From Halorubrum sp. F4 (lineage in GTDB: Archaea > Halobacteriota > Halobacteria > Halobacteriales > Haloferacaceae): a stretch of 64,000 nt of DNA. The notes beneath the pieces are model-generated. The model ran no database searches and was not told where the DNA came from. It saw only the letters and a list, made by a program, of their open reading frames with translations. Shown one piece after another: positions 21,514 to 25,861 of this stretch; position 1 is the first letter of the stretch; each line of letters opens with the position of its first letter. The translations under genes were made by a program, and so were the position numbers. The DNA lies in NCBI RefSeq assembly GCF_027257195.1, contig NZ_JAPDFS010000001.1:20002-84001 (forward strand), written 5' to 3'.

Positions 21514-22239
21514 ATGGAGCTCACTTGGCACGGCCACTCGACGTGGCACGTCGTCGTCGACGAGACCGAACTACTGATCGATCCGTTCTTCGACAACCCG
21601 AAGACGGACGTCGACCCCGAGGAGCTCGATCCGGACTACCTCCTCCTGACGCACGGCCACGCCGACCACATCGCCGACGTCGACCGATACGAGGGCGCGA
21701 CGGTGGTCGCGACCCCCGAGCTGACGGGCTACGTCCAGGACACCTTCGGCCACGAGGACGCCGTCGGCGGCATGGGAATGAACATCGGCGGCACCGTCGA
21801 GTGCGGCGACGCGTGGGTGACGATGGTCCGTGCGGACCACTCGAACGGGATCGACACCGGCTACGGGACCTCCGCGGGGATGCCGGCCGGGTTCGTGATC
21901 GGCGACAAGAAGCCGACCCAGGAGTCGGACCCCGACTGTACCACGTTCTACCACGCCGGCGACACCGGCCTCATGTCCGAGATGGTCGACGTGATCGCGC
22001 CGTACCTCGAGCCCGACGCGGCCGCGTTACCGGCCGGCGACCACTTCACGATGGGCCCCGCGGGTGCGGGTATCGCCGCCGACTGGGTGGGTGCCGACGT
22101 GGTGTTCCCGATGCACTACGACACGTTCCCGCCGATCGAGATCGACACTCGGGAGTTCGTCAACGAGGTGAAGGCGGCCGGGGCCGCCGCGGAACCCGTC
22201 ATCCTGGAGGGCGACGAGACGTACACGCTCGAGTCCTGA
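21514..22239 (+). CDS. Metallo-beta-lactamase-fold metal-dependent hydrolase (UPF0173-like)
   Basis: A 241-residue protein with an intact metallo-beta-lactamase site: THGHADH (HxHxDH), [24 protein letters not shown] and FPMHYDTFP supply the two-zinc ligands. The opening [11 protein letters not shown] is diagnostic of the UlaG/UPF0173 branch. Substrate is unknown for most archaeal members; hydrolysis of a phosphoester or lactone is the usual expectation. This intact MBL site contrasts with the degenerate one in the gene at 24353. An OsmC-family gene follows on the same strand after 75 nt. Confidence 0.9.
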
Positions 22240-24352: not shown

Positions 24353-25048
24353 ATGGGAATGAAGGAGGTCGGCGAGCCGGAACTCCACGAGATCGATCGC
24401 TTCGACCGCGGCGTGGGCTGGATCGCCTATCCGGAAGAGTCGATGGAACGTGCGAGCCACGCGCTCGCGGTGCCGAACGAGGAGGGCGACGACGACGTGT
24501 GGGTGATCGACCCGGTCGACGCGCCGGGCGTCGACGACCTGCTCGCGGAGTTCGGATCGGTCGCGGGCGTCGTGATCGGGTTGGACCGGCACGAACGCGA
24601 CGCCGCCACGCTGGCGGACCGCCACGACGTCCCCGTCTACGTCCCCGAGTGGATGACCGGCGTCGCCGACGGCGTCGACGGCCAGGTGCGCCGGTTCGGT
24701 CGCCGGCTTGCGGACTCCGGTTTCGAGTCGATCCGGATCCGGGATTCTACGATACCGCCCTGGCAGGAGGTCGGCCTCTTCGACGGAGAGACGCTCGTGG
24801 TCCCCGAGTCGCTCGGCTCGGCGTCGTACTTCCGGGGGGATCGCGAGCGGCTCGGCGTCCACCCGATGCTCCGGTTGACGCCGCCGCGGACGGTCCTCTC
24901 CGGCCTCGCTCCCGACCGCGTTCTCGTCGGTCACGGCGCGGGCGTCCTTGACGACGCCGGCGCGGCGGTCGAGGGCGCGCTCGCGGGGTCCCGGCGGAAG
25001 GCTCCCGGACTCTACGCGAAGACGCTCCGGTCCGCGCTCGGTATCTGA
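24353..25048 (+). CDS. Metallo-beta-lactamase-like protein with degenerate metal site
   Basis: A 231-residue protein. Its layout follows the MBL fold: WVIDPVDAPGVDDLL (where active members have a strand ending in the Asp-Pro turn), VAGVVIGLDRHERDAATLAD, VPVYVPEWM and a C-terminal LVGHGAGVLDDAGAAVEGAL. In active relatives the segment after the second strand reads THGHxDH; here residues 76-84 are GLDRHERDA, so most metal ligands are absent. It is therefore either a non-catalytic derivative or binds something else. The downstream gene begins 8 nt after the stop and has the same kind of degeneration. The start may be 24353 or 24359. Confidence 0.72.
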   Translation: MGMKEVGEPELHEIDRFDRGVGWIAYPEESMERASHALAVPNEEGDDDVWVIDPVDAPGVDDLLAEFGSVAGVVIGLDRHERDAATLADRHDVPVYVPEWMTGVADGVDGQVRRFGRRLADSGFESIRIRDSTIPPWQEVGLFDGETLVVPESLGSASYFRGDRERLGVHPMLRLTPPRTVLSGLAPDRVLVGHGAGVLDDAGAAVEGALAGSRRKAPGLYAKTLRSALGI

Positions 25049-25055
25049 TCGTCCC

Positions 25056-25472
25056 GTGATCCACGTCACTCGGGACCTGCTGACGGTGCTTCTCGACCAC
25101 GCCGCCGAGCGCGACCCGACCGCGGTGAACCTTCGCCTATCCGCCACCCGTGCGGGAGCGTTCGACGCGGACCTCGGATTGGATCCGGAGACGCCCGTCC
25201 TGACGCACTTCACGCTCGAGGGCGTCGGCGGCCCGGTGAACGCGGTGTTCGGCGTCGATCTCGGGACGCCTGCCGGTCGGGGCGGCGCACGGTTCCTCTC
25301 ACATCCGACCGGCCGGCTCGAACTGTCGAAGACCGACGACCTCGCGGCGGTGGTTCTCGTCGCGGTCCCGCCGTACGACGCCGACGGCGTCGCCGCCTTC
25401 GACCGCGCCGGCGACGGGATCGAGCTGGTCGTCCTCGACGCGACTCCGCCGGAGGAGTCGATTCCGGAGTGA
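25056..25472 (+). CDS. JAMM/MPN (JAB)-like protein with incomplete metal site
   Basis: A 138-residue protein starting at GTG 25056. The pattern fits a short JAB/MPN domain: a helix VTRDLLTVLLDHAAERDP, strands, then FLSHPTGRLELSKTDDLA (residues 80-97), whose spacing equals the JAMM consensus H-x-H-P-x6-S-x2-D. His83, Ser91 and Asp94 are kept, but the first His is replaced by Leu81, and the N-terminal catalytic Glu is not seen. Active JAMM proteases remove ubiquitin-like SAMP modifiers in haloarchaea. This one is probably inactive or altered. It follows the degenerate MBL gene by 7 nt, so the two likely form an operon. Confidence 0.68.
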   Translation: MIHVTRDLLTVLLDHAAERDPTAVNLRLSATRAGAFDADLGLDPETPVLTHFTLEGVGGPVNAVFGVDLGTPAGRGGARFLSHPTGRLELSKTDDLAAVVLVAVPPYDADGVAAFDRAGDGIELVVLDATPPEESIPE

Positions 25473-25534
25473 TTCCGACCCTTCTCGTCCCGCAAACCCG
25501 AGTTTAAAGGCGACCGAGCGGCTACGAGACGGCG

Positions 25535-25861
25535 ATGGCAGCACGCCCACCAGGCGGCGGCGGGTCCGCGGAACCGGAGGCGATCGAGTTCGGCATCGCC
25601 GCGCTCGACGCCCGGATCGAGGAATCGGACCTCTCGTTTCCCGCGACGAGTCGGGAGATCGTCCGCGCGCTCGATCACCCGGAGATCCCCTACGACTCGA
25701 AGGGACGAACGATCGACCTGGCGACGGCACTGGAGGAGGTCCCGAAGTCGAAGTTCGAGAACGAGACTGAACTGCTCGACTCGCTGTATCCCGTCTTCGA
25801 CGAGGCACGCCGGGGCGGCCGCGGATTCCTCGACGGGCTCCGAAACGCGCTTCCCTTCTGA
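25535..25861 (+). CDS. Conserved haloarchaeal hypothetical protein (DUF5789-like)
   Basis: A 108-residue acidic protein with the pattern IEFGIAALDARIEES - LSFPATSREIVRALDHPEIP - YDSKGRTIDLATALEEVPKS - FENETELLDSLYPVFDEARR. The helices, a central glycine turn and a hydrophobic C-terminus (LDGLRNALPF) suggest a small folded domain. The resemblance to DUF5789 is from memory and not verified. A GAGTTTAAAGG box lies about 29 nt upstream, so it has its own promoter although it follows the JAMM-like gene on the same strand. Confidence 0.75.
   Translation: MAARPPGGGGSAEPEAIEFGIAALDARIEESDLSFPATSREIVRALDHPEIPYDSKGRTIDLATALEEVPKSKFENETELLDSLYPVFDEARRGGRGFLDGLRNALPF

Follow-up and report, generated by a model that had tools for sequence, protein, structure and literature searches.

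Within a 64,000-nt stretch of a Halobacteria genome (hereafter the window), two neighboring genes encode relatives of metal-dependent hydrolases, a metallo-beta-lactamase (MBL) and a JAMM/MPN protein, and each departs from the canonical metal site of its family. This raises the question of whether the pair represents dead enzymes or proteins that have taken on other roles. Gene 1 (24353..25048, + strand; ATG at 24353, stop ending at 25048) encodes 231 aa, and gene 2 (25056..25472, + strand; GTG at 25056, stop ending at 25472) encodes 138 aa. The two are co-directional, with a gap of 7 nt from the stop of gene 1 to the start of gene 2 (25049..25055, + strand), and this spacing suggests that they are probably co-transcribed. 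The coordinates, the gap and the motifs were all found at the positions and residues that a first-pass annotation of this DNA had named. The closest gene 1 matches were in Halorubrum species and in a strain that carries the name Halobellus captivus (92% identity).

Both reading frames are kept throughout Halobacteria. Comparisons with four close relatives gave dN/dS values of 0.155-0.190 for gene 1 and 0.113-0.174 for gene 2, establishing purifying selection on both, and therefore neither gene is decaying. Together with the family-wide absence of the canonical ligands described below, the conserved frames and the purifying selection place the pair beyond chance. We favor, with a probability of roughly 0.55, the reading that it constitutes a haloarchaeal two-gene module, in which gene 2 would be a non-catalytic MPN-minus binding or scaffold subunit and gene 1 an MBL relative with a rebuilt pocket. 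Neither gene family was named in the titles and opening lines of abstracts that our literature search covered.

Homology and metal site of gene 2

As a single sequence, gene 2 had no Pfam or NCBIfam match up to E 10 and retrieved only four PDB chains (E 0.1-1.8). PADLOC gave no match for it, and Pfam searches with 43 members of the family returned three unrelated families, one member each (E 0.09-0.16). Its homology was established by sequence profiles, for which 43 of 50 gene 2 proteins and 49 of 56 gene 1 proteins were aligned; seven were left out of each alignment as near-duplicates, truncated or oddly started, and the window row stands for locus L001. A search of PDB sequences with the 43-member profile returned the entries 1oi0 and 1r5x of AfJAMM (AF2198), at E values of about 1e-7, and nothing besides these up to E 5. 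Furthermore, hhalign aligned gene 2 with 30 haloarchaeal JAMM2 proteins over 128 columns (E 4e-9, probability 96), compared with E values of 0.085-0.54 for four mismatched pairings, all hhalign E values being those of single comparisons. In the genome of the window, the gene 2 profile found JAMM2 at E 3.6e-7 on another contig, and it did not match the JAMM1-like gene that was found there by Prok-JAB. We assign the names JAMM1 and JAMM2 in this genome by similarity, and the gene that JAMM2 adjoins looks like ribL. Gene 2 thus resembles AfJAMM and JAMM2 in its near full-length profile alignment, in the HP and Asp positions and in the C-terminal region, and the earlier assignment of gene 2 as a JAMM homologue was upheld. 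A corresponding MPN fold would be expected for the protein.

The alignment with AfJAMM spans the whole domain, placing H83-P84 and D94 of gene 2 on the HP and Asp of AfJAMM and matching L81 to the first His of HSH. Residues 80-94 of gene 2, FLSHPTGRLELSKTD (25293..25337, + strand), read F80-L81-S82-H83-P84-x6-S91-x2-D94, such that the JAMM spacing HP-x6-S-x2-D is retained and Leu81 replaces the first His. Ala23 (25122..25124, + strand) occupies the position of the AfJAMM catalytic Glu in the register of the AfJAMM alignment. These features, including the missing N-terminal Glu, are as the first reading of the sequence described them.

The substitutions extend across the family (residue counts here and below were made on unique sequences). 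Position 81 was Val in 54 of 87 sequences, Leu in 21, Ile in 10, Asn in 1 and Thr in 1, i.e. Val, Leu or Ile in 85/87 and His in 0/87, and an HxHP motif was found in 0/87, so that no aligned orthologue kept a full HxH. His83 was present in 87/87 sequences, and Asp94 in all 86 that have a letter at this position. Position 91 was Ser in 28 and Thr in 52 (n=87). At position 23, which is Ala in the window, Glu occurred in only 14/87. In contrast, JAMM2 kept HPxE, H[ST]HP, the Ser and the Asp in 30/30 rows from the 30 best-scoring of 116 genomes, the JAMM2 set being 30 fetched loci that were chosen by HSHP, a motif present in all 30. Because JAMM2 keeps the full set, the loss of the first metal His and of the catalytic Glu is specific to gene 2. 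These residue patterns establish that the incomplete metal site is fixed family-wide, and with HxHP in 0/87 sequences, gene 2 is by sequence an MPN-minus protein.

In mechanistic terms, gene 2 would be a diverged relative of JAMM2 and AfJAMM that is short of one of three zinc ligands and of the catalytic Glu, and its most likely role is that of a binding or scaffold subunit with no catalytic activity. In view of the invariant H83 and D94, it could still bind metal. Occurring in 374 of 392 genomes, this haloarchaeal MPN-minus gene is a concrete candidate for an inactive partner of the kind that eukaryotic deubiquitinases have.

Gene 1 and its remodelled site

The relationship of gene 1 to MBLs was harder to detect. 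The single window protein had no Pfam or NCBIfam match up to E 10, including to Lactamase_B_5 and DUF4336, and nothing usable was found in the PDB. Searches with the 49 aligned members gave weak matches to Lactamase_B_5 (PF14597) in 4/49 (best E 0.11) and to DUF4336 (PF14234) in 2/49 (best E 0.029), and no member passed the Pfam score for membership in either family. The gene 1 profile had its best match among PDB sequences, at E 0.062, to 2p97, the Lactamase_B_5 structure, which like gene 1 lacks HxHxDH in the aligned stretch. The commonest Pfam match, ribosomal S5 (5/49 members, best E 7e-4), was set aside as local, since the PDB S5 match spans only positions 183-215 of the gene 1 profile. 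We also rejected DUF4336 as a haloarchaeal sister family of gene 1, with matches in 2/59 genomes; among the matches listed for the gene 1 profile there was one DUF4336 protein, at E 0.31 vs 0.0023 for the best own MBL. NCBIfam searches with the 49 members returned nine weak and unrelated families (best E 0.013), and PADLOC gave one weak match, to a 4TM effector model (E 0.047).

Profile comparison gave a clearer result. An hhalign of gene 1 with 23 canonical archaeal MBLs, i.e. those of 29 fetched loci with an HxHxD[HAT] motif and fewer than 320 aa, was colinear over 169 columns (E 2e-4, probability 47). After 20 rows, some of them paralogues, were added from further haloarchaeal loci, the score was 35.0, whereas the best of 100 column shuffles scored 24.2 and a reversed profile 16.8; across these comparisons the alignment covered 169-175 columns with a probability of 45-47. 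With moderate confidence, gene 1 therefore appears to be a distant, colinear MBL homologue, less securely placed than gene 2 is among JAMM proteins, and an MBL fold would follow from this. The suggestion that it keeps the MBL layout was confirmed to that extent, as sequence homology. Like the canonical MBL hydrolases (PF00753), gene 1 aligns along about 170 profile columns and has GHG at motif 5; unlike them, it has LDRHxRD for HxHxDH, Glu or Asp in the motif 4 region and, at motif 3, a W.E region.

Residues 77-83, LDRHERD (24581..24601, + strand), stand in place of HxHxDH, as had been noted for the slightly longer GLDRHERDA at residues 76-84, although the exact register of LDRHxRD on HxHxDH is ambiguous by a few residues. 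H80, R82 and D83 in this segment were identical in 114/114 full-length unique gene 1 sequences (4 of 118 were dropped as short), as were D53 and H194, the latter aligned to the MBL GH motif within residues 193-195, GHG (24929..24937, + strand), at motif 5. Near motif 3 (His), residues 137-139, WQE (24761..24769, + strand), contribute W137 and E139, each present in 113/114. Glu152 (24806..24808, + strand), in the region of motif 4 (Asp), was Glu or Asp in 114/114. A further conserved block, residues 165-174, ERLGVHPMLR (24845..24874, + strand), has no MBL motif aligned to it; E165 was Glu in 113/114, and outside this block H36 was His in 113/113 sequences with a letter. HxHxDH was found in 0/114, so no orthologue in the alignment keeps the full canonical motif.

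Among the 114 sequences, 104 have H170 as the window gene does, and the other 10 are diverged paralogues; counts for H170 are circular because the split was made on this residue. R79 is altered in 10/10 paralogues and P171 in 9/10. The ten paralogues (L199-L202 and L204-L209) mostly have a YHxRD-type motif, and VPD replaces VPE.

That polar residues have been retained through duplication where the MBL motifs lie suggests a functional pocket, in which H80, R82, D83, E/D152 and H194 may meet in space. We propose that these five, plus W137, E139, E165 and R174, replace the dinuclear site. Because the canonical site has given way to another invariant polar set, gene 1 most likely keeps a functional pocket, which might be a rearranged metal site or might accommodate a charged small ligand. 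The statement that both proteins had lost key ligands thus holds in that the canonical ligands are gone family-wide; for gene 1 it is an understatement, the replacements being as invariant as an active site. For the same reason, the new active site that the first-pass annotation offered as an alternative fits gene 1 better than a dead one. Gene 1 would then illustrate cleanly how an MBL relative can exchange its set of metal ligands for another that stays invariant. A canonical MBL with HGHADH is encoded at 21514-22239 of the window, about 2 kb upstream of gene 1, and offers a natural contrast to it.

Distribution, adjacency and alternative readings

Of the 33 genomes in its order, 32 carry gene 1; it was found in none of the 163 others of a phylum sample, 144 of which were not listed individually. 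Gene 2 was present in 374/392 class genomes, as read from profile rows with a best E below 1e-20 and at most 10 candidates scored per genome. A second search of the other 18 genomes, with all candidates scored, gave a best E of 1.9e-9, and no match was found in G098 or in G262, the assembly of which is in 720 pieces. Gene 1 was kept in 15 of these 18 genomes, and at four loci without gene 2 (L211-L214) its motif was intact. Dependence of gene 1 on gene 2 was therefore rejected, and the two are not obligate partners. A diverged gene 2 copy at the six gene 1 loci without gene 2 was likewise rejected, as the profile had no match in 6/6 (L034 and L049 contain runs of N).

Synteny established that the neighborhood is conserved. 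With flanks of up to 6 kb, gene 2 was present at 49/55 gene 1 loci, on the same strand and downstream in 49/49. Measured between profile matches rather than codons, the gap in these 49 loci was at most 199 nt in 39, 406 and 468 nt in 2, and 2.3-2.6 kb in 8. With 1.5-kb flanks, the neighbor was seen at 26/30 gene 2 loci and 19/29 gene 1 loci; among the misses it lay farther off in G142 and G172 (about 2.5-2.7 kb), G024 (2.5 kb) and G031 (6.6 kb). At 42 divergent loci, where gene 1 was less than 70% identical, gene 2 was found in 36 and a DUF5789 gene in 30, whereas each of eight other window neighbors occurred at 0-2 loci: an FAH-like gene at 2, UPF0173-like MBL, OsmC-like and LDH-like genes at 1 each, and four others at 0 (labels assigned by eye). 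Loci recur in part among the three adjacency sets, which are therefore dependent on one another, and the sequence sets come from a single class dominated by a few families. Within that scope, the adjacency proposed from the window was conserved across Halobacteria. Flanks of about 3 kb (shorter for L205) showed no gene 2 beside any of the ten diverged gene 1 paralogues.

The persistence of gene 1 in genomes without gene 2 and the separation of 2.3-2.6 kb in 8/49 loci indicate that the two need not act together. A simple paired loss, as originally worded, is consequently not supported: gene 1 has a different invariant polar set, and the genes are not obligate partners. In the two-gene module that we favor, gene 2 would regulate or present gene 1 or a partner shared by both, with co-transcription being probable and any physical contact conjectural. 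The single link to a role with SAMP-type conjugates would be the closeness of gene 2 to JAMM2 and AfJAMM.

That closeness raises another possibility: JAMM2 may have gene 2 as its MPN-minus partner, in the way that Rpn11 has Rpn8. Gene 2 would dimerize with JAMM2 and either activate it or position it so that SAMPs are removed, with gene 1 as a separate protein in the same operon. The profile of gene 2 matches both JAMM2 and AfJAMM and passes over the JAMM1-like gene, and JAMM2 was present in 116/116 class genomes searched. Previously, JAMM1 of Haloferax was described as acting alone, and HvJAMM2 made in E. coli was reported not to be functional, with the authors speculating that it needs partners (PMC4895103). 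A 2018 article stated that archaea were not known to pair a deubiquitinase with an inactive JAMM homologue in the manner of the eukaryotic proteasome lid (PMC6043591). If gene 2 pairs with JAMM2, this would fit both the inactivity of HvJAMM2 by itself and the archaeal gap. However, gene 2 adjoins gene 1, whereas JAMM2 is on another contig, and JAMM2 was kept in 7/7 genomes without gene 2 among the 116 (G017, G021, G042, G061, G074, G090 and G098). On both counts, we consider partnership with JAMM2 unlikely.

Gene 2 could be an archaeal equivalent of the catalytically inactive subunits that partner eukaryotic ubiquitin-removing enzymes. By analogy, it may be compared with the eukaryotic MPN-minus proteins Rpn8, CSN6 and eIF3f as a JAMM homologue with a broken site in a host that also has an intact JAMM of the nearest type. 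This likeness would concern how the proteins work; the PDB sequence search returned only AfJAMM, and an MPN-plus partner of gene 2 would be hypothetical.

Alternatively, gene 1 might be enzymatically active through a metal site of an unusual MBL type, in which case gene 2 would be an accessory of unrelated function and the pairing would reflect shared expression only. The residues that are invariant in orthologues and paralogues, the persistence of gene 1 without gene 2 and the synteny of the DUF5789 gene as well are all consistent with this, but two remodelled metallohydrolase relatives would then adjoin by coincidence, and we give such an arrangement a low probability.

A broader proposal, which we regard as very unlikely, would have gene 2 pair with JAMM2 in the SAMP-proteasome system on the principle of an archaeal Rpn11-Rpn8, explaining the inactivity of JAMM2 by itself, with gene 1 supplying a linked, rebuilt MBL-type activity or a sensor. 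Finally, a stable hetero-complex in which His83 and Asp94 of gene 2 combine with gene 1 residues to complete a site for a metal or ligand would fit the constant order and strand at all 49 loci with both genes and the invariance of H83 and D94 despite loss of the third ligand, but appears very unlikely given the genomes that keep gene 1, with its motif intact in L211-L214, in the absence of gene 2, and the 0/10 diverged paralogues with gene 2 beside them.

Neighboring and inserted genes

The DUF5789-like gene of the window (25535..25861, + strand) matched its Pfam family at E 0.0019, under the cut-off of that family, and its counterparts are those syntenic with the pair in 30/42 divergent loci. 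It may have its own promoter, to judge from a TTTAAA box near 25503-25508. Next to the start of the DUF5789 gene, or overlapping it, L017 (7295-7798, - strand) and L034 (9578-10153, - strand) carry an opposite-strand ORF that by eye resembles a ribbon-helix-helix protein; the L017 ORF had no Pfam match up to 0.01.

Furthermore, at five loci examined in detail, from several haloarchaeal lineages, a roughly 700-aa protein that bears HYIGH...NAC motifs is encoded between the two genes and in the same direction: L046 (6746-8842), L014 (6785-8836), L029 (6614-8776), L218 (1435-3516) and L216 (2165-4240, - strand). The same HYIGH/NAC protein is also present at L034, where gene 2 is absent. It gave one PDB match (E 0.36) and weak matches to Pfam CHAT in 3/6 members (best E 0.012, the sole score shown below cut-off), and we tentatively regard this inserted protein as CHAT-like.
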